In this document: positions 19,666-38,055 of the stretch, piece after piece
Layout of the letters: each line of letters opens with the position of its first letter
Position numbering within the stretch: the stretch's first letter is position 1
Source of the DNA: Rhizobium leguminosarum
GTDB lineage: Bacteria > Pseudomonadota > Alphaproteobacteria > Rhizobiales > Rhizobiaceae
Assembly: GCF_001652265.1 (NCBI RefSeq)
Contig: NZ_LWBS01000417.1
Location: 124,001 to 188,000 of the forward strand
Direction of reading: 5' to 3'
Length of the DNA: 64,000 nucleotides
Made by a program: the position numbers and the translations under genes
The notes under the pieces: model-generated
The model's input: the letters and a program-made list of their open reading frames with translations, nothing else
Databases searched by the model: none
What the model was told of the DNA's origin: nothing

Positions 19666-21873
19666 CTAATTTTCAGGTTCAAGCATGATTGTCGCCAAGG
19701 GCGGCAAGGTAATCGAGCAGGTGATGTTGCCGCCGGCATCGACGGCCTGCACGCGCCCGCCATTGCCCTTGCCGCTGCCGCCGTAGATGTCGGCATCGGT
19801 GTTCAGGATTTCCCGCCAGCGCCCTGCGGACGGCAGGCGGATCGAGTAGTTCTCGCGGTAGACAGGGGTGAAATTGGTGATGACGGCGACCGGCTTCTGG
19901 CCTGGCGCCTTGCGCAGCCAGGCAAAGACGGAATTCTGGTGGTCGTCGGCGACCAGCCATTCGAAACCTTCGCCCTCGCAGTCACGCGCATGCAGCGCCG
20001 GCTTGCTGCGATAGGTGAAATTGAGATCGCGGACCAGGCGCCGCATGCCCTCGTGCATGCGATACTGAAGCAGGTTCCAGTCGAGTGCCTTCTCTTCGCT
20101 CCACTCGCTCCATTGGGCGAATTCCTGGCCCATGAACAGCAGCTTCTTGCCCGGATAGCCCCACATATAAGCGTAGTAGGCGCGCAGATTGGCGAACTTC
20201 TGCCAGTCGTCGCCCGGCATCTTGGCGATCAGCGAGCCTTTTCCATGGACAACCTCGTCATGCGAGAGCGGCAGGACGAAATTTTCCGAATAGGCGTAGA
20301 GCAGGCCGAAGGTGAGCTCGTTGTGATGGTGCCCGCGATAGATAGGATCGCGGCTCATGTAGCTCAGCGTGTCGTGCATGAAGCCCATGTTCCACTTGAA
20401 GCCAAAGCCGAGGCCGCCTTCATGAACGGGCTGTGAGACTTTCGGCCAGGAGGTCGATTCCTCGGCGATGGTCATGACGTTGGAATTTTTGCCATAGATG
20501 CGGATGTTGAGATCCTGCAGAAAACGGACCGCTTCGAGGTTCTCGTTGCCGCCATATTCGTTCGGGATCCACTCGCCGTGCTTGCGCGAATAATCAAGGT
20601 AGAGCATCGAGGCGACGGCATCGACACGCAGACCGTCGAGATGGAATTTTTCGGCCCAGTAGAGCGCGTTGTTGACGAGATAGGAAACGACCTCGGTGCG
20701 GCCGAAATTGTAGATCGCCGTGCTCCAGTCGGGATGGAAGCCCTTGCGCGGGTCTTCGTGCTCGTAGAGAGCCGTGCCGTCGAACCAGCCGAGGCCGTGC
20801 TCGTCGGTCGGGAAATGCGCCGGCACCCAGTCGAGGATGACGCCGATGCCGACCTTGTGGCAGCCGTTGACGAAACGGGCAAAACCCTCCGGCTCGCCGA
20901 AACGCGCGGTCGGCGCGTAAAGGCCGGTCGTCTGGTAACCCCAGGAGGGATCGTAGGGATGCTCGGTGATCGGCAGGAATTCGATATGGGTGAAGCCCAT
21001 GTCGGCGCAATAGGGGATGAGGCTGGAGGCGAGCTCGTCCCAGGACAGCATCGTGCCGTCCTGCCGGCGCTGCCAGGAGGCGGCATGCACCTCGTAGATC
21101 GAGATCGGCTGCCGGCGCTTGTCAGTCTCGCGCCAGTGTTTCAGATGGGCTTCGTCTTCCCACTCCTGCTCCAGCTCGGCGGCGGTGATGGAGGCGGTCT
21201 TCGGCCGGAGCTCGCTGCGGCGCGCGAAGGGATCGGCCTTCAGCGGCAGCAATACGCCGTCCTGGCCGCGGATCTCGAACTTGTAGGCAACGCCGATCGG
21301 TACGTCAGGGGCAAAGATTTCCCAGATGCCGCTGTCGGCGCGGAAGCGCATCACGTGGCGACGGCCGTCCCAATTGTTGAAATCACCGACGACGGAGACG
21401 CGCTGCGCATTCGGCGCCCAGACGGCGAAATGGATGCCCTGGGCGCCGTCATGCTTGATAAGGTGGGCGCCCATCTTGTCGAACAGGCGCAGGTGCGAGC
21501 CCTCGCGGGCGAAATAATCATCCATCGGTCCGAGCACCGGACCGAAACTGTAGGGATCGGTGACGGCCCATTCGGCATCGCCGCGCCGGGCGCGGTAACG
21601 TATCGGCTGGAGTTTGGTAAGGGAAACCGGGCCGGCAAAGACGCCGTCGGCGTGGAGCTGCTTCAGTTCGCCGATGACGCCGCCGTCGAGCGTCATGGCG
21701 GTCACCTCCTCCGCGCCGGGGATGAAGCATCGGGCGACAAAAGCGTCGCCGGCCTGGTGCACACCTAGGACGGCAAAGGGATTGGAATGCGAGCCGGCAA
21801 GGATCGCCGTGATTTCATCTGCCGAAATTTCCCAGGAAAGCTTTACTTCAGGGATAGTTTTCGGCGTTTTCAT
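19666..21873 (-). CDS. glgB: 1,4-alpha-glucan branching enzyme
   Basis: 735 residues, GH13 subfamily 9. Two N-terminal beta-sandwich domains (about 20-240, including [20 protein letters not shown]) precede the barrel, with catalytic residues in [25 protein letters not shown] and [12 protein letters not shown]. It transfers alpha-1,4 chains to make alpha-1,6 branches. The start overlaps the glgP stop by four bases (ATGA), so the two are translationally coupled. Confidence 0.96.
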
Positions 21874-24332
21874 CCGGCTCTCCAGATTTCGTCTGCATAT
21901 TGCCTGATCGTACGGTCGGAAGAGAACCAGCCCATCCGCGCCGTATTGTTGATCGTCTTGGTGTACCAGGCGGACTGGTTGGTCCAGATCTGGTCGACTT
22001 CGCGCTGGGCCTGGGCGTAGGCGTCGAAATCGGCGGCGACCATGAACCAGTCGTGCGAATAGATGCCGTCGATCAGCGCCGTGTAACGGTTGCGATCATC
22101 GGGCGAGAAGACGCCGGAACTGATGGCGGCGAGCGCTTGAGCGAGTTCGCGCGATCCCTCGATGATGGCGCGGGGATTGTGGCCATCGCTGCGGACCTTC
22201 GACACTTCGTCGGCCTTGAGGCCGAAGATGACGATGTTGTCCTCGCCGACATTGTCGCGCATCTCGACATTGGCGCCATCGAGCGTGCCGATCGTCAGCG
22301 CGCCGTTCAGGCCGAACTTCATGTTGCCGGTGCCGGATGCTTCCATGCCGGCGGTCGAGATCTGCTCGGAAAGGTCGGCGGCCGGAACCATGACTTCGGC
22401 GAGCGAGACATTGTAGTTCGGGACGAAGACGATCTTCAGCAGGCCGCGCACCGACGGGTCGTTATTGATCGTGCGCGAGACGTCGTTGATCAGCTTGATG
22501 ATGAGCTTGGCATTGTAGTAACTCGGCGCCGCCTTGCCGGCGAAGAGTTTCACGCGCGGCACCCAGTCGAGCTCGGGATGCGAGCGGATCTGGTCGTAGA
22601 GCGCGACGGCCTCGATGATGTTCAGCAGCTGGCGCTTGTATTCGTGGATGCGCTTGATCTGGATGTCGAACATCGCCGACGGATCGAGCTTCACGCCCAT
22701 GCGGCTGGCGACGAGGTTGGAGAGCGCCACCTTGTTGGCGCGCTTTACCGCCGCGAATTTCTGCTGGAAAGCCGGATCGGAGGAATGCACGTCGAGCGCA
22801 CGCAGCTTCTCGGCATTATCGAGGAATTCGTCGCCGATCGCTTCGCGGATCAGGCCGGTGAGACCGGGATTGCACTGCTGCAGCCAGCGGCGTGGCGTTA
22901 TGCCGTTGGTCTTGTTGTTGATGCGGTTGGGATAGAGCTTGTGCAGGTCGGCGAAGACCGTGACCTTCATCAGGTCGGTGTGCAGGGCCGAGACGCCGTT
23001 GATCGAATGCGAGCCGACGAAAGCGAGGTTGCCCATGCGCACGCGGCGATCGCCGCTTTCATCGATCAGCGAGATCGAGCGGATTTCCCCATCGGAGAAG
23101 TTCTTGCCCTTGCGAGCGTCGATCAGGATCTTGGCATTGATCGCATAGATGATCTGCATGTGACGCGGCAGCAGGCGCTCGAACAGCGGCACCGCCCAGC
23201 TTTCCAGCGCTTCGGGCAGAAGCGTGTGGTTGGTGTAGGAGAAGGTATGGCGGGTGATTTCCCATGCCTGGTCGAAATCCATCCCGTGTACGTCACAGAG
23301 CAGGCGCACGAGTTCGGCGACCGAGACGGCGGGGTGAGTGTCGTTCAGCTGGATCGCCACCTTGTCCGGCAGCGAGGTGAAGTCGTCATATTGCTGCAGA
23401 TGGCGGCGCAGGATGTCCTGCAGCGAGGCCGACGAGAAGAAGAATTCCTGGCGCAGGCGCAGCTCCTGGCCGGCCGGGGTGGCGTCCGCGGGATAGAGAA
23501 CCCGGGTCAGGCTTTCGGCCTTGTTGCTTTCGCGGAGCGCGCCGATGTGGTCGCCGGCGTTGAAGGCATCAAGCAGGATCGGATCGATCGGTTGCGCCGA
23601 CCAGAGGCGCAGCGTGTTGACCCGTTTGCCGCGCCAGCCGACGGCCGGCGTATCGAAGGCGGCGGCAATGACGCGCTCGGCTGGTTTCCAGACGTAGCGT
23701 GGCTGGTCGTCATGGGTGGTGATGAATTCGACGGCGCCGCCGAAGCCTATTTCATAGGAGCTTTCGCGGCGCTCGAATTCCCAGGGATTGCCATGGGCGA
23801 GCCAATTTTCCGGCAGTTCCACCTGCCAGCCGTCGGCCAGCTGCTGGCGAAAGAGGCCGTGGACATAGCGGATGCCGTAGCCATAAGCGGGCACGTCGAC
23901 CGTTGCCATGCTTTCCATGAAACAGGCAGCCAGGCGGCCGAGGCCGCCGTTGCCGAGTGCGGCATCCGGCTCCAGGCCGGCGATGACGTTGACATCGACG
24001 CCGAGCGAGGCGAGCGCATCGCGCACCTCCTCCATCAGGCCGAGGTTGGAGACGGCGTCGCGCATCAGGCGGCCGATCAGGAATTCAAGAGAAAGATAAT
24101 AGACGCGCTTGGCGCCGGTCGCATAGACCTCGCGGGTGGACGCCATCCACCTGTCGATGATGCGGTCGCGCACCACCAGGATCGTCGCCGTCAGCCAGTC
24201 ATGCGGCTTTGCCACCTTGGCATCCTTGCCGATGCGGTAGGTCAGACGTTCGATGATTTCTTCAGCGAGAATTTCCGGCCTTGAACTGCGAGGGGCGGGG
24301 GAGGGGATGATCGGCTTGGAAACAGTGTTCAT
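21870..24332 (-). CDS. glgP: Glycogen phosphorylase
   Basis: 820 residues, GT35. The pyridoxal-phosphate region EASGTGNMKFGLNGALTIGT contains the Schiff-base Lys, and GNGGLGRLAACFMES is the conserved N-terminal glucan site. It releases glucose-1-phosphate from glycogen, the substrate for Pgm and GlgC. It is the first gene of the six-gene minus-strand operon glgP-glgB-glgC-glgA-pgm-glgX, so degradative and synthetic enzymes are co-transcribed. The ribosome-binding site before the ATG at 24332 is weak (GAGA). The operon promoter should lie between 24333 and 24600. Confidence 0.96.
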   Translation of the reverse strand: MNTVSKPIIPSPAPRSSRPEILAEEIIERLTYRIGKDAKVAKPHDWLTATILVVRDRIIDRWMASTREVYATGAKRVYYLSLEFLIGRLMRDAVSNLGLMEEVRDALASLGVDVNVIAGLEPDAALGNGGLGRLAACFMESMATVDVPAYGYGIRYVHGLFRQQLADGWQVELPENWLAHGNPWEFERRESSYEIGFGGAVEFITTHDDQPRYVWKPAERVIAAAFDTPAVGWRGKRVNTLRLWSAQPIDPILLDAFNAGDHIGALRESNKAESLTRVLYPADATPAGQELRLRQEFFFSSASLQDILRRHLQQYDDFTSLPDKVAIQLNDTHPAVSVAELVRLLCDVHGMDFDQAWEITRHTFSYTNHTLLPEALESWAVPLFERLLPRHMQIIYAINAKILIDARKGKNFSDGEIRSISLIDESGDRRVRMGNLAFVGSHSINGVSALHTDLMKVTVFADLHKLYPNRINNKTNGITPRRWLQQCNPGLTGLIREAIGDEFLDNAEKLRALDVHSSDPAFQQKFAAVKRANKVALSNLVASRMGVKLDPSAMFDIQIKRIHEYKRQLLNIIEAVALYDQIRSHPELDWVPRVKLFAGKAAPSYYNAKLIIKLINDVSRTINNDPSVRGLLKIVFVPNYNVSLAEVMVPAADLSEQISTAGMEASGTGNMKFGLNGALTIGTLDGANVEMRDNVGEDNIVIFGLKADEVSKVRSDGHNPRAIIEGSRELAQALAAISSGVFSPDDRNRYTALIDGIYSHDWFMVAADFDAYAQAQREVDQIWTNQSAWYTKTINNTARMGWFSSDRTIRQYADEIWRAG

Positions 24333-24543
24333 CGTCAGGTCTCGCCAATTTTAATTTGGTTTCAGGATGTTATGCCTGATTCAATCAATTCGTCGCTTGT
24401 GCAGCCGACAGTTTATGCATCGTTACTAAGCACTTGCAACAAAGGATTTGGACAAACGAAAAATTTGCGAAACCTTCATGATCAGGTGGGCCGAGGGGGT
24501 TGATTTCAAACGCTTTTCCCGATCTGATGCACCGAACGAGCAC

Positions 24544-24569
24544 AACGAAAAGCCGCGCCGGTTTGTTCC
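24544..24569 (-). promoter_or_regulatory. Possible EcfG-type promoter upstream of the glg operon
   Basis: The minus strand reads GGAAC, 17 bases, CGTT, matching the rhizobial general-stress sigma consensus. It is 212 bases upstream of glgP and points at it. It overlaps the terminator hairpin of the gene at 24609, so the match could come from the hairpin sequence by chance. Confidence 0.35.
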
Positions 24570-24579
24570 GGTGCGGCTT
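24549..24579 (-). terminator. Terminator of the Tad-like gene
   Basis: A 12-bp stem with one wobble position and a 6-base loop, just after the stop of the 24609-25847 gene; on the minus strand it runs into TTTTCGTT. The plus strand has a poorer T tract. Confidence 0.7.
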
Positions 24580-24608
24580 CTTCGTTAGGCTTTTGCCGGG
24601 ACATATCG

Positions 24609-25847
24609 TCAGTTGGTAAGGCGCGTCACCTGCGCGGAGGCCTTCGCTCCGATTGCCTTGAAGGCGGCAAGAAGGTCTTCCATTTTTTCCGGCTGGAAAT
24701 AATGGGAGTCATCGGAGGCGCAATAATGCAGCAGTGCCTGTCCGCCCGCGGGCGCCATAAAGGCAATCGTATAGATTTCGATGCCTTTCGATTTCGCGTC
24801 GTCGCATGTCTTCTTCGTCGCGGTGTCGTAGGAACGGCCGCCGCTGCTATCATTGTTATTGTCGCCGTCCGTCATGAAGAGAATGTACTTCTTGGGTGCC
24901 TGGCCGGTTTTCTGCTGGTGGGCGGCGTCTTCGGCGTCATTCCCAGCCGCGTTCTTGGCAGTTAAAGACGAGTAGGCTGTGGCCATTGCGCCGCTGGAGT
25001 TCGTGCCGCCATTTGCCTGAAGCGCATTGACATAGCTTGAGACACCGGCAGTCCCCCAGGCGAGACTGCTGGCTGGGTATTGAACGATATCGTAGGATAC
25101 CGCGCCTGTGCGTACATATTCGGCATTGGGATCGGCGCTATTGAGCTGACCAAAGAGGTTGCCGGCGGCGAGCTTCAGCGCCTCTATTTTCGTATAATAG
25201 TTCGTGCGACTGCCGGTGCATTTGTCGTAGACCACCTTAGTGCCATTTCCATTCAAGTGGGGGTTGCAGTCGTAGGTGTAGGGTTCCGTTGGCGAAGCCA
25301 CGTTGACAGTCGCTGTGTTCTCTCCCATCGATCCCGACTTATCGAGCGCGAGATACATCGAGATGGAGCCCTGGGTCTGTGAGTGACCGCCGACCGTCGT
25401 GCCGGAGGTCGAGAGATGCTGCGTCGTAAAGCCGACTGCCTGCATAAGCGGGTTGACGGTGAGGTCGTAACTCGGCGAAACCGTTACCTGGTAGGATGTC
25501 GATTTGCCCGATGTCGTTGCCTGGACATTGACGGCGGTCGTGCTCTTGATATCGGCACCGCTCTGCAGGTAATTCGCCATTTGTCCGGCGACGAAATCCC
25601 GCGCGAAGGCTTCGGCCTGTGAAGTTTGGATCTTGCCGTTCGCCAGGGCGGTCGCGGTTGCCAGCGCGGCTGAATCGGCGGCTTCCTGCAACTGCTGTTT
25701 CGAGAGCAATATATCGCCCACCTGAATCGCCATGCCGGCAGCCCCAAAAAGGACGGGCAGTACGATCGCCGTCATTATACCGAAATTACCGCCACGATCG
25801 CCAAGCATGCGACGCAGGCAGGGATGCAAAAAGGAGGTGCTCATCAT
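24609..25847 (-). CDS. Tad-like pilus/von Willebrand A-domain protein
   Basis: About 412 residues. An N-terminal TadE/TadG-type membrane segment (RGGNFGIMTAIVLPVLFGAA) is followed by LSKQQLQEAADSAALATA, the usual putative pilus-assembly Flp/TadG pattern. The C-terminal two thirds is a von Willebrand A domain with a full metal site: DKSGSMGE, the Thr of GGTNSSGAM, and MTDGD. Such proteins are exported, membrane-tethered adhesion or assembly factors. No tad, cpa or flp gene is adjacent, so it is an orphan. The start may be the GTG at 25853 or ATGs at 25847 or 25844; GGGTGA just upstream suits 25847. It ends at a terminator. Confidence 0.8.
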   Translation of the reverse strand: MMSTSFLHPCLRRMLGDRGGNFGIMTAIVLPVLFGAAGMAIQVGDILLSKQQLQEAADSAALATATALANGKIQTSQAEAFARDFVAGQMANYLQSGADIKSTTAVNVQATTSGKSTSYQVTVSPSYDLTVNPLMQAVGFTTQHLSTSGTTVGGHSQTQGSISMYLALDKSGSMGENTATVNVASPTEPYTYDCNPHLNGNGTKVVYDKCTGSRTNYYTKIEALKLAAGNLFGQLNSADPNAEYVRTGAVSYDIVQYPASSLAWGTAGVSSYVNALQANGGTNSSGAMATAYSSLTAKNAAGNDAEDAAHQQKTGQAPKKYILFMTDGDNNNDSSGGRSYDTATKKTCDDAKSKGIEIYTIAFMAPAGGQALLHYCASDDSHYFQPEKMEDLLAAFKAIGAKASAQVTRLTN

Positions 25848-25961
25848 GTTCACCCGTGTATGGAGGCCCTGTCGAGGTGATATTGAGCACGCTCTCCTTT
25901 CCGCCGCCCTTACGGCATCAATACAATTTTAACGAATCGTCGGATTTTTCCAGTTTTGGGA

Positions 25962-26849
25962 TTATTTCAGCGGAATGACGTCGACCGCCTGGACGGCACG
26001 GTGGCCGCCATAGCTCTTCAAGACGCCGATGACGGGGACGACATCGGAGTAGTCCCGGCCGTAGGCGACGACGATGTGGTCCATGCCGGCGGGAATGTTG
26101 TTGGTCGGGTCCAGTTCGATCCAGCCGATCGTCTCGCCGCACCAGATGCGCACCCAGGCATGCATGGCGTCTGCCCCTTCCAGCCGTTCCTTGCCGGGCG
26201 GCGGGATGGTGCGCAGGAAGCCGGAGACGTAGCCGGCCGGAATGCCGAGGCTTCTGAGAGCCTGGATCATCACATGGGTGAAATCCTGGCAGACGCCGCG
26301 CTTCAGCTTGAACGCCTCGAGCGGCGTGGTGTCCACCGTCGTCGCCTCCGGGTCGTAGGTGAAATCCTTGTTGATGCGGGCGCAGAGCGCATGAGCGATC
26401 TGCATGGCCGTCAGATCAGACGTGGCGCAGCTTCGCGCATAGTCGGCGATCTCGCGCGCTTCGGTGAGGCGCGGGCTGTCACCGAGGAAATGGTGCGGCG
26501 AATCCGGCGCCAGCGACCACATGCCTGATATCTCCTCCGGCAGGTCGGCAAGCAGCGGCGAGAAATCGGCGGCGATCGGCTGGCTTTCCACCTGCACCCG
26601 GGCCTGCATGCGAATGTCAAGCGTCTCGTGCGGCGCGCGCAGCAGGAAGGAGGTGGTGGGGTGATGGAAGAAATCGACGAAATGCGACTGCTCGTCCGGC
26701 GAGGGCGAAATGGTGATCGAGCCGGCGATCAGCCGCTGCCGATTGGCCAGCGACAGCGGCATCAGGCGCATGATGTGGCGGGCGCCGGAGGCTGGCGCGT
26801 CGTAGCTGTAACCCATGTGGAGGGAGAGATCGTAGAGCACGGCCGTCAC
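25962..26849 (-). CDS. Transglutaminase-like cysteine protease-fold protein
   Basis: 295 residues with an N-terminal beta domain (bacterial transglutaminase-like N) and a transglutaminase core whose triad is visible: Cys187 in GVCQDFTHVM, His230 in DAMHAWVRIW and Asp247 in WIELDPTNN. Proteins of this type are thought to hydrolyse or transfer amide bonds. No signal peptide is seen, so it should be cytoplasmic. The start overlaps the stop of the ATP-grasp gene by four bases (ATGA), placing it third in a coupled cluster. The substrate is unknown. Confidence 0.85.
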   Translation of the reverse strand: MTAVLYDLSLHMGYSYDAPASGARHIMRLMPLSLANRQRLIAGSITISPSPDEQSHFVDFFHHPTTSFLLRAPHETLDIRMQARVQVESQPIAADFSPLLADLPEEISGMWSLAPDSPHHFLGDSPRLTEAREIADYARSCATSDLTAMQIAHALCARINKDFTYDPEATTVDTTPLEAFKLKRGVCQDFTHVMIQALRSLGIPAGYVSGFLRTIPPPGKERLEGADAMHAWVRIWCGETIGWIELDPTNNIPAGMDHIVVAYGRDYSDVVPVIGVLKSYGGHRAVQAVDVIPLK

Positions 26850-29266
26850 CCGAGATAGGTCTGGGCGAGCAGATCGGAGAGCTGCTCCAATTCGCGTTCC
26901 AGTCGCTGATAGACTTCGACGCCCATGCCCTCCGGCGTCATCACCGCCAGGCCGGAGTGGAGCCGCATCGCCTCGCGGTAGAAGGGCGACATCTGGCCGT
27001 TGATCATGGCATTCGGCAGTTGTTCGACCTCGTGATGGATCTCGTTCACCTGGAAGAGGACCGAACGCGGGTTGAGCGGGTCGAGTGCCAAGAGGTCGGT
27101 GACAGTCAGCCGCGCGGTGTTGACGTTATAGCGGCGGCGATGGGTCATGACGCTGTCGCCGATCTCCAGCAGCATGTCGAGCGCGCCGTCAGGCGCTTCC
27201 GGGCCCGACATGTGGCCGAGCAGGCGCGTCATGTGCAGGCCGCGTTCGATATAACGGCCGAGCGAAAGGAACCGCCAGCCGGTGAAGCGGTACATGTTTT
27301 CATGCATGAGACCGGCGAAGCCTGCAAGCTTCCGCAAGAGGATCGTCATCGCGTGGCTGGCATCGTCGCCGGCGGCGACGGTGACGTGGAAGCGGCGGGC
27401 GGTCTTGGCGAGATCGTTGAGTGCCAGCCAGCCGTCCGGCGAGAAACGGTCGCGGATGTTGCTGGCCGAATAAACGGCGCTGTCGATGTTGCGCAGCAGC
27501 GTTTCCGGTACGGCGTCGGCAGTATCGATATCGACGGCCGTGAGATAGTCGGAGACATCGGCGAGCAGCGGCTGGCTCGGATCGGCAGCTTCGGCGTAAC
27601 GCGCATGCCAGGCGCGCAGGATGCGCAGCGCTCCTTCGGCGCGCTCGATGTAGCGGCCGAGCCAGAACAGGTTGTCGGCCGCCCGGCTCGGCAGGCTGCC
27701 CGGCATGTTGCGGGTGAAGCTGCCCTCGGCGGGCAGCAGCGTGTGGCGCTCGACCGGTTTGTCGCTGACGATCCAGACATCGGCGGCCGCACCGCCGGAC
27801 TGCATGGCGATCGCCGCGACATCGGCGCCGGAGCCGATACGGGCAAAACCGCCGGGCATGATCTGCCAGCCGTTTGCGGTGCGCGCGGCGAAGACGCGCA
27901 GCGACATCGGCCGCGGCACGAGCTTGCCGTCCACCCAGGCGGGTGTGGTCGACAGCGTGACGACCTCCTGGCCGACGAGCTTCGGGCCGTCCGAACTTAG
28001 CCAGTCGGTTATCGAATCCTTGGCAGCCGCGCGCAGCGATGAGCCGAGCACGGATTCGCCGTTATCGTCGAAGAAGGGAGCACGGGAATAGGCCGGGCCG
28101 ATGACCATCTTTTCGATGTTTTTTGCCACGTGCTCGCGCTCTTCCTCCTGACCGCACCACCAGGTAGCGATCGAGGGCAATTGCAGATCTTCGCCAAGCA
28201 GATGGTGACAGATGGTCGGCATGAAGGCGAGAAGCGCCCGGGTTTCAAGAATGCCGGTGCCGAGCGCATTGACGATGGTGAGGCTTTCGGCGCGCAGCGC
28301 TTCCACGAGGCCGGGCGTGCCGATATGCGAATTCTGGTTCAACTCCAGCGGGTCGGCAAAAGCCGAATCGAGACGGCGCCAGAGCACGCCGATCGGCTTC
28401 AAGCCGGCGACGGTGCGCACCATGACGCGGCCCTTGACGACGGTCAGATCCTCGCCCTCGAGCAGCATGAAGCCGAGATAGCGGGCGATGTAGGCGTGCT
28501 CGTAGTAGGTCTCGTTGGCGGGGCCGGGTGTCAGCACGGCGATGCGGTCGTCGCCCGAATGTTTCATACCCTGTAGCGCGTCGCGGAAGGCGCCGAAGAA
28601 GGAGGCGAGGCGATGGACCGGGGTTTCTGCATAGATATCCGAGAAGGCACGAGTCGTCGCGACGCGGCTTTCCAGCGCGAAACCAGCGCCTGAGGGAGCC
28701 TGCGTCCTGTCGGCGAGCACCCACCAGTTGCCGTCAGGCCCGCGGCCGATTTCGAAGGCGCAGAAATGCAGATAATGGCCGGATGCGGGCTTGATGCCGG
28801 CGAGCGGGCGCTGGAATTCGGGATTGGCGGCGATCAGTGCCGGCGGCAGGAAACCTTCCTCCACCAGCCGGTTGTCGCCGTAGATATCGGCGATGATCGC
28901 TTCCAGCAGGTCGGCGCGCTGGACGAGGCCTGCCGACAGCGTCTGCCATTCGCGTTCGTCGATCAGCACGGGGATATGCGAGATCGGCCAGGCTCGCTCG
29001 CCGGTGCCCTTGCTGCCATAGGCGCGGTAGAAGACGCCGGCATCACGGAGATAGCGGTCGGCGCGGGCGAAACGCTCGGCGAGATCCTTTTCCGGCATTG
29101 CGCTCAGATGCGAGAGGAAATTTTGCCAGACGGGGCGGACGGCGCCGTCGTTGTCGACCATCTCATCGGCGGTATCGGGATGCGGCGCATAGTCGAAGGC
29201 CGCATTCTTGGCGATGCGGCCCTCTGCCTCTTCCCTGCGCTCCACTGCCGGCTTCTTGCCCATCAA
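26846..29266 (-). CDS. Circularly permuted ATP-grasp / alpha-E fusion protein
   Basis: 806 residues. Residues about 50-490 match the circularly permuted type-2 ATP-grasp family (motifs RDAGVFYRAYG, IADIYGDNRLVEEG, LTPGPANETYYEHAYIAR, VDGKLVPRPMSLRVF). Residues about 515-806 form the alpha-helical alpha-E (DUF403) domain, with LPSRAADNLFWLGRYIERAE and a second LGRYIERGLHMTRLL. In many bacteria these are two genes; here they are fused. Comparative genomics predicts amide or peptide ligase activity partnered with transglutaminases, but a product is not established. It is the second gene of the cluster, 24 bases after the DUF2126 gene and overlapping the downstream transglutaminase gene. Confidence 0.88.
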   Translation of the reverse strand: MMGKKPAVERREEAEGRIAKNAAFDYAPHPDTADEMVDNDGAVRPVWQNFLSHLSAMPEKDLAERFARADRYLRDAGVFYRAYGSKGTGERAWPISHIPVLIDEREWQTLSAGLVQRADLLEAIIADIYGDNRLVEEGFLPPALIAANPEFQRPLAGIKPASGHYLHFCAFEIGRGPDGNWWVLADRTQAPSGAGFALESRVATTRAFSDIYAETPVHRLASFFGAFRDALQGMKHSGDDRIAVLTPGPANETYYEHAYIARYLGFMLLEGEDLTVVKGRVMVRTVAGLKPIGVLWRRLDSAFADPLELNQNSHIGTPGLVEALRAESLTIVNALGTGILETRALLAFMPTICHHLLGEDLQLPSIATWWCGQEEEREHVAKNIEKMVIGPAYSRAPFFDDNGESVLGSSLRAAAKDSITDWLSSDGPKLVGQEVVTLSTTPAWVDGKLVPRPMSLRVFAARTANGWQIMPGGFARIGSGADVAAIAMQSGGAAADVWIVSDKPVERHTLLPAEGSFTRNMPGSLPSRAADNLFWLGRYIERAEGALRILRAWHARYAEAADPSQPLLADVSDYLTAVDIDTADAVPETLLRNIDSAVYSASNIRDRFSPDGWLALNDLAKTARRFHVTVAAGDDASHAMTILLRKLAGFAGLMHENMYRFTGWRFLSLGRYIERGLHMTRLLGHMSGPEAPDGALDMLLEIGDSVMTHRRRYNVNTARLTVTDLLALDPLNPRSVLFQVNEIHHEVEQLPNAMINGQMSPFYREAMRLHSGLAVMTPEGMGVEVYQRLERELEQLSDLLAQTYLG

Positions 29267-29290
29267 AACTTAAGCCTCAAACCCTCGGCC

Positions 29291-32200
29291 TCAAACCCCG
29301 GCGGGCCGCCTCAGATCCAGCGTCAGCGGAAATTCCGGCGAACCTGTCTCGACGCGCGGAATGTATCCGCCCGCCGTATGCCCCCACGGTTCGAACCGGG
29401 TGAGCCGTCTTGCTTCCGCCTCGTTACCGTTGACCGGGAAGGTGTCATAGGTCCGGCCGCCGGGATGGGCAACATGATAGATGCAGCCGCCGATCGAACG
29501 TTTCGACCATGTATCATAAATGTCAAAAGTCAAAGGTGTGTTGATCGGCAGGACAGGATGCAGGCCCGAGGCCGGCTGCCACGCCTTGTAGCGGACGCCG
29601 GCGACCGACACGCCCGATGTGCCGGTCGGCGTCAGCGGCAGGGTGCGGCCATTGCAAGTGACGGTATAACGCGAGGCGTTGTCGGTTTCGAGCCGCACCT
29701 GCAGGCGTTCGACAGAGCTGTCGACGTAGCGGGCGGTGCCGCCCGGCGCGCCTTCCTCGCCCATGACATGCCAGGGCTCCAGCGCCTGACGGAGTTCCAG
29801 CTTCGAGCCCTCGTATTCGACCTCGCCGCAGAAGGGGAAGCGGAATTCGAGCTGGGCCTTGAACCATTCCGGGCTGACGTCGAAGCCGTTTTCGCGAAGA
29901 TCGGCAAGCACGTCGAGGAAGTCGGCCCAGACGAAATGCGGCAGCATGAAACGGTCGTGCAGGGTCGTGCCCCAGCGGACGAACTTGCCGTCGACGGGAT
30001 TGACCCAGAAGCGGGCGATCAGCGCGCGCACCAGCAATTGCTGGGCAAGCGACATGCGCGCGTTGGGTGGCATCTCGAAACCGCGGAACTCGATGAGGCC
30101 GAGCCGTCCTGTCGGGCCGTCGGGCGAGAACAGCTTGTCGATGCAGATCTCGGCGCGGTGGGTGTTGCCGGTGACGTCGGTCAGAAGATTGCGGAACAGG
30201 CGGTCGACGAGCCAGGGCAGCGGCTGCTGGCCACGGCCGGGGGCTCCGATCTGCGCCATGGCGATCTCCAGCTCGTAGAGGCTGTCGTGACGAGCCTCGT
30301 CGATGCGCGGCGCCTGGCTGGTCGGGCCGATGAACATGCCGGAGAAGAGGTAGGAGAGCGAGGGGTGGCGCTGCCAGTGGAGGACCACGCTCTTCAAGAG
30401 ATCGGGACGGCGCAGGAAGGGGCTATTGTTCGGATTGGCGCTGCCGACGACGACATGGTTGCCGCCGCCGGTGCCGGTGTGGCGACCGTCGATCATGAAC
30501 TTGTCGGCGCCGAGCCGGGTGGCGCGCGCCTCCTCGTAGATCGCCGTGGTGATGTCGACGCAGTCCTTCCAGTTCGAAGCCGGATGAATATTGACCTCGA
30601 TGACGCCGGGATCCGGGGCGACGCGGATGACGTTGATGCGCTCGTCCTGCGGCGGCGGATAACCTTCGATATGGACGGGAAGCTTGAGCTCGGCGGCGGC
30701 GTTTTCGGCGGCGGCGATCAGCTCGAGATAATCCTCGATGCGTTCGACCGGTGGCATGAAGATGCAGAGCCTGCCGTCGCGCGGCTCGACCGACATGGCG
30801 GTGCGTACGGCGCCGCGAAGCTCGCCGAGCGTCTGTTCGATCCGGCCGCGATTGCTCTCGTCGGCATGGAAGGAGGCTTCCGGCATGGCCCGGCCGGCCG
30901 GTACGAAGACATCAGGCAGCGGTTCGCGCGGGATCGTCGGATCGGCGGGGTGGATATAAGGGTAACGCGCCGGGGGAACATAGGGCAGCGTGCCGAGCGG
31001 CAGGCGGTATCCGATCGGACTGTCGCCCGGGACAAGGAAGATCTTGCCGCGGCGGGTGCGCCATTTCTCGCTGACCCAGACCCGTGTTTCGGCTGCCTTG
31101 GCGTTCCATGCCTGAACCGGAAGGACGTAACCGGTCGGGGTCGTGAGGCCGCGGGCGAAGACGCGGGCGATGCGGTTGCGCTCCTCAGGATCCTTCAGCT
31201 TCGAATTGGACGGATCGACATTTTCGGGAAGGCTGCCTTCCTTGATGATCCAGTCGGCCGGATCTTCATAGGCCGGCTGCACCATGTCAGGCTTGATCGC
31301 CAGCTCCTTTGCGATCGCCGTCAGGAGCTTTTCGGCATCCTCGGCTTTGACGCCGGTATCCTTGCCTTCGGCGGCGACCAGATCGAGGTTCTGCCAGACC
31401 GGCTTGCCGTCGCGGCGCCAGTAAAGCGAGAAGGTCCAGCGCGGCAGGCTTTCGCCCGGGTACCATTTTCCCTGGCCATAATGCAGAAAACCGCCGGGGG
31501 CGAAGCGTTCGTGCAGCTTGCGGATCAGGATGTCGGCCTTTTCGCGCTTGGTCGGGCCGACGGCGGCGGTGTTCCACTCCTCGGACTGGAAATCGTCGAT
31601 CGAAACGAAGGTCGGCTCGCCGCCCATCGTCAGATGCACGTCCTCGGCTTCGAGGACGCGGTCGACTTTCTCTCCGAGTTCGTTGAGCTCCTCCCAGCTT
31701 TCATCGGAAAAGGGCTTGGTGATGCGTGGGTGTTCGGCGACGCGCGAGACCTTCATGTCGAAGGCGAACTCGGTTTTGGCCTCACCGAAATAACCGCCGG
31801 AAATCGGCGCGGCGTTGCGGTAATGCGGCGTTGCGGCAAGCGGGATATGGCTTTCGCCGGTCAGCAGGCCGGACGTCGGATCGAGGCCAACCCAGCCGGC
31901 GCCGGGCAGATAGACCTCCGCCCAGGCATGCAGGTCGGTGAAATCGACTTCGGTGCCGGAGGGGCCGTCGAGCGCCTTCAGGTCCGGCGTCAGCTGGATG
32001 AGGTAACCGGAGACGAAGCGGGCGGCAAGGCCGAGATGGCGAAGGATCTGGACGAGCAGCCAGCTGGTGTCGCGGCAAGAGCCCTTGGCGGTTTCCAGCG
32101 TTTCTTCCGGCGTCTGCACGCCGGTTTCCATGCGGATGACATAACCGATCTGCCGCTGCAGACGGGCATTCAAGCCGACGATCATATCGACCGTCGGCTG

Positions 32201-32617
32201 GTCGGGCGACCAGTCGAGCGTCGGCAGCAGCGCCTTCAGGCGCGGACCGGCCGGCTCCGGCGTCATGTAGATCGACAGATCCTCCTGGATCGTTTCAGGG
32301 TATCCGAAGGGCCACTTGGTCGCCTCTTCCTCGACGAAGAAGTCGAAGGGATTATAGACCGTCATGTCGGCGACGAGATCGACCTCGATCTTGAACTCCG
32401 TCACCGGGTCCGGGAAGACGTAGCGGGCAAGGTAGTTGCCGTAAGGATCCTGCTGCAGGTTGACGAAATGGTTGGAGGGCGTGACCTTCAGCGAGTGGCT
32501 GAGCACCCGTGTCTTCGAATGCGAGGCGGGTTTCAGTCTGATGATCTGTGGGCCGAGACGGACCGGCTTGTCATAGGTGTAGTGCGTCAGATGATAGATG
32601 CTGGCTTTGATCGACAT
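29291..32617 (-). CDS. Transglutaminase-DUF2126 protein
   Basis: 1108 residues. An N-terminal beta domain (about 1-110) and a transglutaminase core with Cys181 (KGSCRDTSW), His230 (DLHAWAEVY) and Asp246 (VGLDPTSG) are followed by a very long DUF2126 region (about 290-1100), including [18 protein letters not shown] and the [18 protein letters not shown] motif. DUF2126 resembles an amidoligase of the glutamine-synthetase/gamma-glutamyl-cysteine-ligase superfamily, so the protein may both form and break amide bonds. It is the first gene of the cluster, with a 100-base promoter region between it and the histidine kinase gene. Confidence 0.88.
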
Positions 32618-32717
32618 ATTTCTTTTTTATCCGGCGCGCATCGTCGTGCGGCTTGCTGTTCCCGAAAATCAGTGTGTGCAATGCAGCGAAAGAAAGCAAG
32701 CGAAAGGTCGATGGCTT

Positions 32718-34100
32718 TTACGCCGCCTTGGCAAAGGTGACGGCCGCCTTCAGGCCCCTGCCGTCCGTACCCGGCTCCAGCGTCAGCGCGGCATTGAAAA
32801 GATTGGCGATTTCTTCAACGATTGGCAGGCCGAGGCCGGCACCCGGCGCACCTGTCTCATTGCCGCGTGAAAAACGCCCACGTACCGCCTCCAGCTTTTC
32901 GCGCGGAATGCCGGGGCCGTTGTCCTCGACTTCGAGGCGGATCGTCTCTGACGCGGTGATGATGCGGACGGTGACCTCAGCTCCCTTGCCGGCATAAGCG
33001 ATGGCGTTGCCGGCAAGGTTGCGCAGCATTTCGCCGATCAGCAGCGGCTCTGCGCGGACCATTGCCGGGCTTTCGCCCTCAAAGCCGAGATCAATGCCGG
33101 CGACGGCGGCCGTCGGGATCTGCTCGCCGGTGATTTCTTGAGCGATGGCGGCAAGATCGATGGCGGAGGCGGTCAGCGCCTCCTTGGCGGTGGCTGCGTC
33201 GATCTTCGCCATCAGCAGAAGCTGGGCAAGAATGCGCTCGGCATGCGCTACGGCCTGATCGCCCTTCAGCGCTGCGGCCTGCGCCTCATCAAGCGAGCCA
33301 GCGCGGGCGGAAAGGGCAAGTTGAGTGCGGATTATCGCCAGCGGCGTGCGCAGTTGGTGGCTGGCATTGCCGGTGAAATGGCGCAGCGCATCGAGCGCCG
33401 ACTGCAGGCGGACCATAAAGGAATTCACCGTTTCGACCAGCGGCTCGACCTCGCTCGGCACGGTCTGCTCAATCGGATGCAGGTCATCGGGGCTGCGTTC
33501 GCCGATGGCGTCGCCGAGCTTGTAGAGCGGGCGGAGCGCCACCGTGACCGAGATCCAGACGATGACGGCCGCGCCCGCGATCATGAAGGCGAGGCGGAGT
33601 GCGGAGCGGACGAGAATCGCCTGCGCCAACTGCCGGCGGGCGATAGTGGTTTCGGCGACCGTCACGACGAAGGGCACGGAGCGGATGCCCGTCGAGGCCG
33701 AGCGTTCGAGTGTGGCGATGCGGATCGGCTCGTCGCGGAAGGTATCGTCGGCGAAGGTGGCCGCATCGCCCGGCGTTTTCTTCAGGACCGGCAAAGACTG
33801 GTAGCCGGTGATGAATTGGCCCGGCGGGCCGTCGACGCGGTAGAAGACGCGATCCTGCGCGGCCGAGGTCAGCATCTCAAGTGCGACATAGGGGATATCG
33901 ACCTGCAGCGTGCCATCCTCGGCGACGACGACGCGTTCGGCGATCGCCAGCGCGGAGCCGGCGAGGACGCGGTCGGAGACGATGTTCGATGTCTGGACCG
34001 CCTCGCGATAGGTATCGGCGAGTGCCAGCGTGCCGATGACGGCTGTCGAGACGAGCAGCCAGAAGAGCAATCGGCGCCTGAGGGAATAGGCGGGCTTCAT
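32718..34100 (-). CDS. TctE-type sensor histidine kinase
   Basis: 460 residues: two membrane segments (about 8-30 and 170-190) flank a periplasmic 2CSK_N-type sensor (GSALAIAERV through GQFITGYQSLP), then a HAMP linker, a HisKA helix with the phospho-acceptor His in ASHQLRTPLAII, and an ATPase domain with N, G1 (DNGPGIP) and G2 (GAGLGLPIV) boxes. The 2CSK_N sensor is typical of TctE kinases that control tricarboxylate uptake. It overlaps the response-regulator gene by four bases. Its target may be the tctCBA operon 6 kb away; that is inference. Confidence 0.85.
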   Translation of the reverse strand: MKPAYSLRRRLLFWLLVSTAVIGTLALADTYREAVQTSNIVSDRVLAGSALAIAERVVVAEDGTLQVDIPYVALEMLTSAAQDRVFYRVDGPPGQFITGYQSLPVLKKTPGDAATFADDTFRDEPIRIATLERSASTGIRSVPFVVTVAETTIARRQLAQAILVRSALRLAFMIAGAAVIVWISVTVALRPLYKLGDAIGERSPDDLHPIEQTVPSEVEPLVETVNSFMVRLQSALDALRHFTGNASHQLRTPLAIIRTQLALSARAGSLDEAQAAALKGDQAVAHAERILAQLLLMAKIDAATAKEALTASAIDLAAIAQEITGEQIPTAAVAGIDLGFEGESPAMVRAEPLLIGEMLRNLAGNAIAYAGKGAEVTVRIITASETIRLEVEDNGPGIPREKLEAVRGRFSRGNETGAPGAGLGLPIVEEIANLFNAALTLEPGTDGRGLKAAVTFAKAA

Positions 34101-34774
34101 GAGGCCTCGGGCAGCTTGTCGAGATAATAGCCGATGCCGCGAGCAGTCTTCACGGTCAGGCCGTGCGGCGAGAGGCGCTTTCGCAGGCGGCTGACATATT
34201 GCTCGATGGCGTTTGCGGAAATGTCGTCGTCGAAGGCCGTCAGCGATTGAATGATCGCCTCCTTGGCGACGACCTTGCCGGCCCGCATGAAGAGAATTTC
34301 GAGCAGGCCGAGTTCGCGGGCGGGAATATCGAGGGGCGTGGCGCCCGATGAAAAGGTGCGGGAATTGAGATCGAAGGAGATGCCGCCGAAGCTGACTGTC
34401 GCCGAACGCAGGCCGGCCTGGCGGCGCAGCAGCACACGCACACGGGCCTCGAACTCGGCGATATCAAAGGGCTTGATCAGATAATCGTCGGCGCCGAGAT
34501 CGAGCCCCTTCACTCGCTCTTCCGGCGTGCCGCGTGCGGTCAGGATGAGGACGGCCGCCTGGTTCTGCCGGGCGCGCATGGCGCGCAGCACGTCGAGTCC
34601 GTCCATCTCGGGCAGGTTGAGGTCGAGAATCACCAGATCGAAATTTTCCGCGGCGATGACCGCATTGGCAGACGCCCCGTCATGGACGACATCGACAGCA
34701 TGGCCCGTACCGCGCAAGATCGCCGACAGGCCGTCGGCCAGCGCGATATTGTCTTCGGTGAGCAGGATGCGCAC
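34097..34774 (-). CDS. OmpR/PhoB-family response regulator (TctD-like)
   Basis: 225 residues. The receiver domain (1-115) has the acidic pocket EDN, phospho-acceptor Asp51 in VILDLNLPEMDG, Thr in LTARG and Lys in YLIKPFD. A winged-helix DNA-binding domain follows (about 125-220, ending VKTARGIGYYLD). It is the first gene of a two-gene operon with the kinase at 32718. Confidence 0.88.
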   Translation of the reverse strand: MRILLTEDNIALADGLSAILRGTGHAVDVVHDGASANAVIAAENFDLVILDLNLPEMDGLDVLRAMRARQNQAAVLILTARGTPEERVKGLDLGADDYLIKPFDIAEFEARVRVLLRRQAGLRSATVSFGGISFDLNSRTFSSGATPLDIPARELGLLEILFMRAGKVVAKEAIIQSLTAFDDDISANAIEQYVSRLRKRLSPHGLTVKTARGIGYYLDKLPEAS

Positions 34775-34899
34775 GGATGTTTCCCCTGTTTTTCAAAGGA
34801 GATTACAGAGGTGAAGGAGGGATGTCACAGCGATTTTGAATCTACAGTGCCACGCGTCCTTCAGAAGCGCAAAGGACGCTGTCATACTTTGCACCCTAC

Positions 34900-34943
34900 G
34901 CATCGTGCTTTCCGAAAATCGATTCCGATTTCGGGCCAATACG
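34900..34943 (-). repeat. Rhizobial palindromic repeat, copy A (inverted relative to 43281)
   Basis: A 44-base block containing a CCGAAAATCG-type palindrome is nearly identical, in reverse orientation, to 43281-43325. Just before it (34854-34880) is a degenerate version of the GCGTCCTTT/AAAGGACGC hairpin that also accompanies the other copy. This is a dispersed intergenic element family. Confidence 0.75.
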
Positions 34944-34972
34944 CTGGGTGAACGGCCGGGAAAGGCTCGATC

Positions 34973-36841
34973 TCAGCTCCCGGTTCTTTCGATCCGCTCG
35001 CGCTGCGTCATCGCGGCGGCGAGGAGTTTTTGGAAGCGGTGATCGTCGCGGATGTTGTCGAGGTCGGAATCATTGTCGAACCATTTGATATGGTAGACAG
35101 AGCTGTTCGGCAGCAGCTTCTGCAACAGATCAATCGCTTGGTCGACGTCGCCGAGGACGGAGTAGACGCAGGCGAGATTATACTGCGCGACGATGTCATC
35201 AGGATCGATGGCGATCGCACGATCGGCCCAGTCGCGTGCCCTTGCCGCATCGCCGAGATGGGCAAGCGCCAGCGCGCCGCGATGGGCGGGGCCAGAATTT
35301 TCCGGATTAAGGTTTAGGGCGCGTTCGGCGCGCAGCAGGCCGAGGCGCGCCCAATTTTCCGTATCCAGCACCCGGCCGAGCGAGCGGTAGGCAGACATCA
35401 GATGGATCGGCGAGACGTAATCATCCGGGCGGATTGCGGCGGCGCGGGTGAAATATTGCACGGATTCGGCGAAGTTGCCGCGCATGAAGAAGAACCGGGC
35501 ATAATGGAAATTCGCCTCGAAGAGATTCGGGTCGAGCGCCAGGGCACGTTCGAAGGCCGCGGCCGCCCTATCGTCGCAGCCGCTCTGATGCAGGGCGAGA
35601 CCATGGGAGGCGTGGGCTTCGGGAAGGTCGGGATCAAGCGCCAGGGCACGGGCGCTCATGTCGAGGATGCGCCTCAGCGGCACGTCATCAGGTGCCCAAT
35701 CGCGGATCGCCGCGTCGCAATCGGCGATGCCGGCATAGGCGCGGGCATAATCCGGATCGAGCTCGACCGCCTTGCAGAACATGCGTCTTGCGAGCTGCAG
35801 ATAAGATTTGGTCCAGGTGTGGGAGAGCTGGCGGCCCCTGAGATAGTAGGTATAGGCCTCGACATTGGCGGTCGGCTCAGTCGCGATCGCCTTCTTTTCT
35901 TCCGGCAGCAGGCGCACCTTCAGCTGGCCGACGATCGCATGGGTGATCTCGTCCTGGATGGCGAAGATGTCGGTCATGTCGCGGTCGTAACGCTCGGCCC
36001 AGAGATGGTCGCCATTGGCAGTGTCGATCAACTGACCGGAAATGCGCACGCGATTGCCGACGATGCGCACACTTCCCTCGAGCACATAGCGCACGCCAAG
36101 CTCCTGAGCCAGCCGCTTCACCTTTACCGATATGCCCTTGTAGGTGAAAATGGTGTTGCGTGGCACGACGTGCAGGCTGGAGATCTTGGAGAGATCGGTG
36201 ATGATGTCTTCGGTGATGCCGTCGGAGAAATAATCCTGGTCGGCATCGCCGCTCATATTGGTGAAGGGCAGCACCGCGATAAAGCAGGTGTTGCGGTTCT
36301 GCGCGACCAATCTGGCGGAGGAAGGCGGTGCCAAGCTGACGGTATAGACCTGAACGGGCTGCCGGATGTTCTTCAGCATATGTTCGCCGATGAATTCGAA
36401 GCCGAGATTGAGGCGCGAGCCGACCTGGTCGCGCACCGAGGCCGACACGGCGATGCCGCCCGGCGTTGCGATGCGCTCGAGCCTGGCGGCGAGATTGACC
36501 CCATCTCCGAAGATGTCGCCGTTCTCGACCACGACATCGCCGAGATTGATGCCGATGCGGAATTCGACGCGCTCGTCTTTGGGCACGTTCTCGTTGCGGG
36601 CCGCCATGCTGCGCTGGATTTCGGCGGCACAGGCGACCGCATTCACCACGCTCTGGAATTCGGCAAGGATGCCGTCGCCGGTGAGTTTGACGATCCGGCC
36701 CTTGTAATCGGAAATACGAATGTCGACCAGCTCGCAGCGATGGCGGTTCAGCGCCTGCAACGTGCCAGATTCATCAATGCCCATCAGTCGGCTATAGCCG
36801 ACGACATCAGCAGCAAGAATAGCGCTCAGTCGTCGTTCCAT
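34973..36841 (-). CDS. Adenylate cyclase with TolB-like and TPR domains
   Basis: 622 residues and no membrane segment, so probably cytoplasmic. An N-terminal class III cyclase domain (about 5-175) keeps metal aspartates in AADVVGYS and VKLTGDGIL and the closing VNLAARLE motif. A middle TolB/FlgO-like domain (about 190-310, FIAVLPFTNMSGD) and a C-terminal TPR array (about 340-600) follow. This architecture is expanded in rhizobia. The ATG at 36841 is chosen for its GGGAGGGG ribosome-binding site; the upstream in-frame start at 36853 would contain that site. It is divergent from the carbamoyltransferase-like gene. Confidence 0.85.
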   Translation of the reverse strand: MERRLSAILAADVVGYSRLMGIDESGTLQALNRHRCELVDIRISDYKGRIVKLTGDGILAEFQSVVNAVACAAEIQRSMAARNENVPKDERVEFRIGINLGDVVVENGDIFGDGVNLAARLERIATPGGIAVSASVRDQVGSRLNLGFEFIGEHMLKNIRQPVQVYTVSLAPPSSARLVAQNRNTCFIAVLPFTNMSGDADQDYFSDGITEDIITDLSKISSLHVVPRNTIFTYKGISVKVKRLAQELGVRYVLEGSVRIVGNRVRISGQLIDTANGDHLWAERYDRDMTDIFAIQDEITHAIVGQLKVRLLPEEKKAIATEPTANVEAYTYYLRGRQLSHTWTKSYLQLARRMFCKAVELDPDYARAYAGIADCDAAIRDWAPDDVPLRRILDMSARALALDPDLPEAHASHGLALHQSGCDDRAAAAFERALALDPNLFEANFHYARFFFMRGNFAESVQYFTRAAAIRPDDYVSPIHLMSAYRSLGRVLDTENWARLGLLRAERALNLNPENSGPAHRGALALAHLGDAARARDWADRAIAIDPDDIVAQYNLACVYSVLGDVDQAIDLLQKLLPNSSVYHIKWFDNDSDLDNIRDDHRFQKLLAAAMTQRERIERTGS

Positions 36842-37275
36842 GACCCCTCCCATGGATCTTCCCAGTTTAATCTAGCTTTTTATAGAGTTTTTGTCGCATA
36901 GAGTCGTCCTCCGAATAAGAAATTCGGGTGGTTTCGACGTTTTTACGCGGCAGCGGACCGTATAAACGTCGTCGATCTTCATCAATACTCTAAATGGGTG
37001 AAGGATGGAGCAAATCCCTAATCCTTTGTGATGAAAAGACAATTCACATCGGACAAAAACGGAAAGTTCTGCTTTGGCCTACATTTTCTGTATCGGCATC
37101 ATAAACCGATCGCCCATCGATTTAAGGCTTGAGCCGGACCCGGGGGCATGGCGTGGAAGACGAATCGCGAGGCTATCCAACGCGGTATGGAATGTGATTC
37201 GCGCTTGTCTCGGCGATTGCCGTGAGACCAGCGAAGGGTATTGTGGCGACCGTCTCAAGCGCAACGAGGGTTGGA
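36842..37275. other. 434-base divergent intergenic region
   Basis: Relatively AT-rich sequence between the TPR cyclase and the carbamoyltransferase-like gene, expected to hold both promoters. The only structure I can point to is a 6-bp inverted repeat CCGAAT/ATTCGG at 36911-36927. No convincing gene is present. Confidence 0.5.
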
Positions 37276-38055
37276 ATGACAGGTTCGGTCCGGAATTTTC
37301 TGGAGTTTCGTGATTTTCCGGAGGCCGGGCTTCGGTCGATCATCGGTCGCGCCGGTGAGCTTGCCAAAGCCTGGGATGAGCGCACGATGCCGCAGAGCCT
37401 TGCGGGCAAACACGTCGCGCTGATTGTCGACGACGGCGGCTGGCGCAATACGACCGCCTTCGATCTCGGCATCCAGGCGATGGGTGGTATCTGCGTTCAT
37501 GTGCCGATAAGCTTCAATACCAGGGAGGAAACCGGCGATCTCTCCGGTTATCTCGGCAACTGGTTCGACATGCTGGTGATCCGCACGAAGGAGCTTGCGA
37601 TACTGAAGGCTGTCGCTGCCGTCTCGCCGGTGCCTGTCATCAACGCGCGGACGCGTTCGAACCACCCTTGCGAGACGCTCGGCGACCTTGCCTACATCAA
37701 GAGCCGGCGCGGCTCGATCGACGGGTTGAAGGTAGCCGGCGTGGCGGCGGACGCCAATATCTTCCGCTCCTGGGTCGAAGCGTCGATCGCGCTGCCGATC
37801 GAGGTGGTGCAGGTCTATCCCGCACGCTGGCATGTCCGAGACAGCGCGCTGCTCAATGGGCGCTTCCGCGCGAGCACCGATATGGGCGAACTATTGGATG
37901 CCAACGTCATCGTCACCGATTCATGGCCGGGCGACGCCGCGGCCGACGCACTTGCCGGCCACAGGATCGGGACCGATGTGCTCGATCGGTTGCGGGAGGA
38001 CGCGATCTTCCTGCCGTGCCCGCCGGTGACGCGCGGCCAGGAGGTGACGGCCTAG
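37276..38055 (+). CDS. Divergent aspartate/ornithine carbamoyltransferase-like protein
   Basis: 259 residues, shorter than the roughly 305-330 of real carbamoyltransferases. The fold is recognisable: NFLEFRDFPEAGLRSII at the start, SNHPCETLGDL equivalent to the HPCQ carbamoyl-phosphate motif, TDSWPG equivalent to the ornithine-site loop, and LPCPPVTRGQEV near the C-terminus. The carbamoyl-phosphate loop STRTR is replaced by GWRNTT, keeping one Arg. It may use another substrate or have lost catalysis. The ATG at 37276 follows GAGGGTTGGA. No arginine gene is adjacent. Confidence 0.75.
   Translation: MTGSVRNFLEFRDFPEAGLRSIIGRAGELAKAWDERTMPQSLAGKHVALIVDDGGWRNTTAFDLGIQAMGGICVHVPISFNTREETGDLSGYLGNWFDMLVIRTKELAILKAVAAVSPVPVINARTRSNHPCETLGDLAYIKSRRGSIDGLKVAGVAADANIFRSWVEASIALPIEVVQVYPARWHVRDSALLNGRFRASTDMGELLDANVIVTDSWPGDAAADALAGHRIGTDVLDRLREDAIFLPCPPVTRGQEVTA

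Follow-up and report, generated by a model that had tools for sequence, protein, structure and literature searches.

Known amidoligase and Anbu-type systems

Systems of amidoligase, transglutaminase and Alpha-E proteins were predicted by Iyer et al. in 2009, as cited in PMC6376114 and PMC5666114 (papers given here by PMC number are cited from passages of their text), and a cluster of this kind lies in the window, the 64,000-nucleotide stretch of Rhizobium leguminosarum DNA analysed here (contig NZ_LWBS01000417.1, positions 124,001 to 188,000). Its three genes, called D, F and t, encode a transglutaminase-DUF2126 protein, a fusion of a permuted ATP-grasp part with an Alpha-E domain, and a small transglutaminase-like protein. 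As far as the citing passages show, the systems predicted in 2009 have the same domains and the same genomic association. The DUF2126 family is itself called a 'putative amidoligase' by Pfam. Another close relative is the Anbu operon (ATP-grasp, Alpha-E, transglutaminase, Anbu), which has homologous ATP-grasp, Alpha-E and transglutaminase proteins and often occurs in the same locus as D-F-t; its ATP-grasp protein from Yersinia bercovieri is reported to release phosphate from ATP (PMC6376114). Unlike the Anbu operon, the window has a fused ATP-grasp/Alpha-E protein, a degenerate ATP-grasp part and an added ligase resembling glutamine synthetase (GS), and no Anbu gene.

D-F-t is a true member of a known, widespread predicted amidoligase system, not a new kind. 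The first-pass annotation regarded it as the strongest candidate for an undescribed system, which is overstated, because such systems were predicted in 2009 and parts of them have been characterised (the Anbu operon; the NtrC regulon). Its other general statements, namely a predicted amide-bond system, the gene order, the fusion and the absence of a known product, agree with our results, and no reported function or product of D-like proteins was found in the literature searched. The useful additions made here are an apparently dead ATP-grasp in F, a GS-like fold of D and promoter evidence from relatives. The features of the cluster are as follows.

29291-32617, minus strand: gene D, 1108 amino acids, Bact_transglu_N + Transglut_core + DUF2126 (putative amidoligase)
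31877-32188, minus strand: transglutaminase core of D, residues 144-247, triad Cys181/His230/Asp246
29309-31783, minus strand: DUF2126 domain of D, residues 279-1103, with a GS-like fold at about 297-1013 in the model
26846-29266, minus strand: gene F, 806 amino acids from TTG or 805 from the next ATG, CP_ATPgrasp_2/1 + Alpha-E
27836-28972, minus strand: ATP-grasp part of F, residues 99-477, circularly permuted, with a degenerate active site
28706-28714, minus strand: A185-D186-R187 of F (806-residue numbering); Anbu-type ATP-grasp proteins have E-D-N here (E-x-N metal ligands)
26852-27694, minus strand: Alpha-E domain of F, residues 525-805, two GRYIER motifs (PF04168, 202.6 bits)
25962-26849, minus strand: gene t, 295 amino acids, Bact_transglu_N + Transglut_core, triad Cys187/His230/Asp247, GTGA overlap with F

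Conservation of the gene set

An even sample of 249 Pseudomonadota genomes was searched, and 50 stretches were hand-picked from the 71 genomes positive for DUF2126, those passed over being mainly near-duplicates or matches near the end of a contig; together with the window they make up 51 sample loci. The best 80 of 591 confirmed matches, obtained with a query that favours Burkholderiales and Pseudomonas, form a second set of named loci, which brings the total to 131. After length filtering, 110 of 118 fused F proteins and 92 of 120 small transglutaminases were used in the counts below.

Alpha-E was found in 132 of the 249 genomes, including all 71 with DUF2126 (Fisher p 1e-25), and 64 of these 71 had at least two Alpha-E matches (Fisher p 4e-41; neither value is corrected for kinship). 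D, F and t occur together in 47/51 sample loci and 69/80 named loci. In 58 of the 131 loci the stretch has D F t in this order and no other gene of these families; most of the remaining loci preserve the order too. Judged by their record titles, one of the named loci is an acidobacterial contig and seven or so are verrucomicrobial, and both DUF2126 and Alpha-E were found in the control genome of Synechococcus elongatus. Conservation of the gene set between phyla excludes a chance arrangement. Conserved co-occurrence had been set beforehand as a test, and a restriction to close relatives is excluded. The fusion of ATP-grasp and Alpha-E, two domains that the first-pass annotation had described as often encoded by separate genes, is present, but it is the rule in such clusters (47/51 and 71/80) and nothing special to this genome.

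D stands alone in two full-length stretches (L044 and L151) and in two near a contig end (L097 and L118), and several other incomplete sets belong to loci cut by contig ends.

The ATP-grasp part of F

F has the circularly permuted ATP-grasp fold of 3N6X, the glutathione synthetases, E. coli Gss and Cp1B, and it lacks the E-x-N motif and the glycine-rich loop of 3N6X and the Anbu-type enzymes. The E and N of E-x-N occur together in none of the 110 fused F sequences and in all 46 of the 46 Anbu-type sequences; in the window the positions are A185 and R187. The glycine-rich loop is kept in only one of the 110 fused sequences, as is K316. K363 is kept in 59 and is Gly in the window. The correspondence of E-x-N was established with 3N6X by HMMER and with Gss and Cp1B by eye, and a profile comparison of the ATP-grasp alignments with E. 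coli Gss (P0241) gave no significant match. For GS and for ATP-grasp families other than Cp1B, the roles given to residues follow general background on these enzymes.

Judged by these residues, F, one of the two presumed ligases of the cluster, is very probably not a ligase. Its first-pass description as a ligase module made of fused permuted ATP-grasp and Alpha-E domains is right as to the fusion and probably wrong as to catalysis, because E-x-N, the glycine loop and other residues are lost throughout the 110 sequences. Loss of ATP-binding residues in both ligase domains, which that annotation had named as evidence against its reading, was found in one of them, the ATP-grasp part of F; DUF2126 keeps invariant acidic, His and Arg residues, whatever their part in ATP or metal binding may be. 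We propose that F and the Anbu operon's separate ATP-grasp and Alpha-E proteins are paralogues. In the passages of the literature searched, no statement was found that the fused ATP-grasp is degenerate or that a sigma-54 site precedes D, though Iyer et al. (2009) may already say so.

The DUF2126 domain of D

The DUF2126 profile (PF09899) matches D with 1331 bits over positions 2-826 of 826, above the cut-off. In the predicted model of D, DUF2126 has a GS-like fold. Seven residues of D are invariant in 64 sequences (E334, E651, E674, H721, E823, E843 and R845); their correspondence to GS-like motifs was drawn by eye and carries no assignment to ATP or metal binding. From the GS superfamily (GS, YbdK, Dop and plant GCL), D differs by its fusion to a transglutaminase domain, by a family length of 826 positions and by the lack of detectable sequence similarity to 29 GS sequences.

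Gene boundaries and triads

Gene calls and a domain scan confirm three minus-strand genes at 25962-32617, and both Cys-His-Asp triads are those that had been claimed, in the 295- and the 1108-residue protein. The triad is conserved in 100% of the 92 small transglutaminases and in 98-99% of the 131 D proteins. F and t do overlap by four bases, but the letters are GTGA and not ATGA, because gene t starts with GTG. The gap of 24 bases given between D and F holds only for the TTG start of F, and 27 bases is likelier, since an ATG directly follows the TTG and the closest listed database relative has 805 amino acids. None of the three proteins has a match in NCBIfam. As no signal peptide is obvious when the sequences are read by eye, all three are presumably cytoplasmic. 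Among the closest listed database relatives, those with a name are mostly from Rhizobium, and D-like proteins number at least 8000 in the database (all 8000 scored candidates passed).

A 1324-amino-acid open frame runs antisense over D and part of F (28766-32740, plus strand); it probably arises as a shadow of the GC-rich strand that codes for them.

Anbu and Peptidase_Mx

Elsewhere in this genome there is a separate ATP-grasp/Alpha-E/transglutaminase operon with an intact ATP-grasp site (L001/L164; G000:C220, about 226.3-229.5 kb), in which no Anbu gene was found. An Anbu query that matches 84 of the 249 genomes has no match in this genome (G000, 93.39% complete); it matches none of three genomes of the window's genus and five of eight same-family genomes of other genera. 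The sole PF00227 match in this genome is a 180-amino-acid frame, taken as HslV. Separate genes for both Anbu-type ATP-grasp and Alpha-E are present in 22/51 sample loci and 33/80 named loci, and with known proteins as queries an Anbu gene was found within 150 bases of D in 10 of the 131 loci.

Of the 30 neighbour families that recur most often, nine had a representative scanned (open reading frames of at least 90 amino acids), and Peptidase_Mx, a putative zinc peptidase with a zinc ribbon, looked functionally related. Its gene is at most 4.2 kb away from D in 16 of the 131 loci (L052, L054, L056, L067, L068, L070, L072, L073, L107, L108, L110, L113, L114, L116, L128 and L132), ten of them within 500 bases. 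Peptidase_Mx occurs in 34 of the 249 genomes, a few matches being weak or broken; 33 of these have Alpha-E and 24 have DUF2126. In G102 and G186 it stands with Anbu beside the Anbu-type operon (L166, L167), and in this Rhizobium it is found away from the cluster, beside an AlgH-like gene (L165). Pfam gave no match for three of the nine scanned neighbours; one of these three (L048) is Anbu according to its coordinates and a known-protein query. A competence protein, gyrase A, a helicase, a kinase/receiver protein and an ABC ATPase, also scanned, looked functionally unrelated.

Regulation

A -24/-12 pattern scored out of 25 was searched upstream of D; among the named loci this covered 79 of 80, one locus starting at the contig edge. 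The consensus patterns and weights used for sigma-54 and NtrC follow general background on these sites. Scores of at least 22 were reached in 45/79 named loci compared with 6/431 control genes, and scores of at least 23 in 38/79 compared with 0/431. In the sample loci, 10/51 reached at least 22 compared with 6/317 control genes; some of the control hits precede an Anbu-type ATP-grasp gene, a position at which a site is present in nine sample loci. A strict search for the NtrC site (TGCACC-N5-GGTGCA, at least 9 of 12) showed only a mild enrichment (31/77 compared with 88/427), and a looser NtrC-like palindrome, chosen post hoc after the strict search, was matched at 11 of 12 in 17/78 loci compared with 6/430 controls.

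These patterns have a counterpart in expression data. In Burkholderia cenocepacia, a cluster under NtrC and sigma-54, I35_5080-83, is reported to encode DUF404/407, DUF403, a transglutaminase and a large transglutaminase protein, and for its genes the paper lists changes of -6.0 to -9.4 when ntrC is mutated (PMC5491218). The gene order fits that of Burkholderia locus L099, where F and t then follow, and from this match I35_5083 would be the DUF2126 protein. In the Anbu operon of Pseudomonas putida, PP_2685 and PP_2688 are up on nitrate relative to ammonium, and the promoter of PP_2688 is responsive to nitrogen limitation (PMC8050072); PP_2685-2687 are up in PMC3325844, and PP_2686-2688, but not PP_2685 (1.12, first strain column), in PMC7801951. 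Expression of the Anbu operon is described as unchanged under various other conditions (PMC5666114), and in marine metagenomes Bact_transglu_N and DUF403/404/407 co-vary with urea domains (PMC3597751). Overall, in many beta- and gammaproteobacteria the cluster looks as if it belongs to the response to nitrogen limitation.

The Rhizobium cluster differs from I35_5080-83 in that no sigma-54 site is detectable and a two-component system lies upstream of it.

32618-32717, minus strand: gap of 100 bases 5' of D, in which no sigma-54-like site was found
32718-34100, minus strand: histidine kinase gene (2CSK_N, HisKA, HATPase), a possible local regulator
34097-34774, minus strand: putative response-regulator reading frame, overlapping the kinase gene on the same strand; its role is read from sequence

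No -24/-12 site of at least 22 occurs in positions 20001-38000 of the window. Among the loci searched, a relative of the kinase lies upstream of the cluster only at L043, a locus of the same genus, where the response-regulator-like frame has a 93% identical relative. The pair may regulate the cluster in Rhizobium.

Proposed mechanism and alternatives

A tentative scheme, which we prefer to its rivals although we give it somewhat less than an even chance, is that D-F-t forms a cytoplasmic amide or isopeptide system in which D is the ligase, the transglutaminase-like domains are hydrolases and F is a non-catalytic partner, with NtrC/sigma-54 control in many relatives. The DUF2126 domain of D would be the ligase, using ATP to couple a carboxylate with an amine (amino acid or peptide). 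The transglutaminase-like domain of D, together with t, would act as a Cys-His-Asp hydrolase or transferase that undoes or trims the product. F would have lost ATP-grasp catalysis and may serve D as a scaffold, an allosteric subunit or a substrate holder. In many beta- and gammaproteobacteria, the operon and the Anbu-type set alike would be transcribed with sigma-54 when nitrogen is limiting, under control of NtrC, and in this Rhizobium the adjacent two-component system may have taken the place of the sigma-54 promoter.

A bolder version, to which we give perhaps one chance in a few, sees in the cluster a nitrogen-starvation machine for a new reversible modification of proteins or peptides. 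The ligase role would have moved from the ATP-grasp to the GS fold; an Anbu-type ATP-grasp/Alpha-E pair would have been duplicated, fused and deprived of its catalytic residues before the cluster spread between phyla, and would have been kept as a non-catalytic partner of DUF2126, either as substrate carrier or as allosteric subunit.

Several observations weigh against the scheme with D as ligase and F as non-catalytic partner. The Foldseek match of D to GS, taken alone, is weak (E 0.1), and the assignment is a structural one, since a profile comparison of the DUF2126 alignment (A2) with 29 GS sequences (L171-L200) gave no significant similarity; no reported activity of any DUF2126 protein was found in the literature searched. 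Several conserved residues (R, E, H, D, GG) survive in F, which also has a new conserved motif, DRTQxPSG, so that an altered chemistry is possible. F also appears dispensable in some loci, because L040, L048 and L049 have D and separate ATP-grasp and Alpha-E genes without F, with an Anbu gene close by. As for the promoters, 41/51 sample loci have no site of at least 22, scores of at least 23 are found in 5/51 compared with 3/317 controls, sites of at least 22 also occur elsewhere in the loci, and the counts are not independent, because the named loci are related to each other. In the window itself the best site scores 19 of 25, at 395 bases, a value reached by 29 of 100 shuffles.

One rival, which we regard as improbable, is nitrogen salvage: in a cell starved of nitrogen, the transglutaminase-like hydrolases and associated peptidases would free amino acids or ammonia from peptides or amides, with the ligase doing no more than preparing the substrate. 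NtrC-type regulation alongside genes for urea and amino-acid transport in Burkholderia (PMC5491218), the like regulation of the P. putida Anbu operon (PMC8050072, PMC7801951) and the sigma-54 sites upstream of D in relatives all suit it; regulation, however, is no proof of function, and among the nine neighbour families identified an ABC-transporter ATPase recurs in only five loci.

Pupylation-like tagging is comparably unlikely. D would conjugate proteins with a tag or an amino acid; removal of the tag or degradation of the target would fall to t or a protease (Anbu or Peptidase_Mx, both of which lie near D in some loci). No tag gene was recognised beside the cluster among the nine of the 30 top neighbour families identified (reading frames of at least 90 amino acids), Dop is no closer to D than GS or YbdK is, and Anbu is not detectable in this genome.

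The least probable alternative is that both ligases work, F with a rearranged ATP-grasp site, so that D and then F build a peptide in sequence; the conserved motifs of F would allow for it, but D423 has gone along with E-x-N, the glycine loop and K316 in practically all 110 sequences, K363 is missing from the window as well, and in the passages on Cp1B consulted alanine at conserved active-site residues abolishes or attenuates activity.

The choice between D and F as ligase matters for experiments. Should D be the ligase and F dead, assays of the protein annotated as an 'ATP-grasp ligase' would fail; the place to begin is then D, alone and combined with F, in cells limited for nitrogen and from a strain that has the sigma-54 promoter. 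The old amidoligase prediction is thereby made directly testable, and a second 'ligase' that is apparently dead throughout its family changes how the cluster should be tested.

Flanking genes

Downstream of t, and on the same strand, lie a gene for a Tad/VWA-domain protein (24609-25853, minus strand, from the domain scan) and a large gene that reads as a glycogen phosphorylase from its sequence (21870-24332, minus strand). Relatives of both adjoin the cluster in L043 as well.

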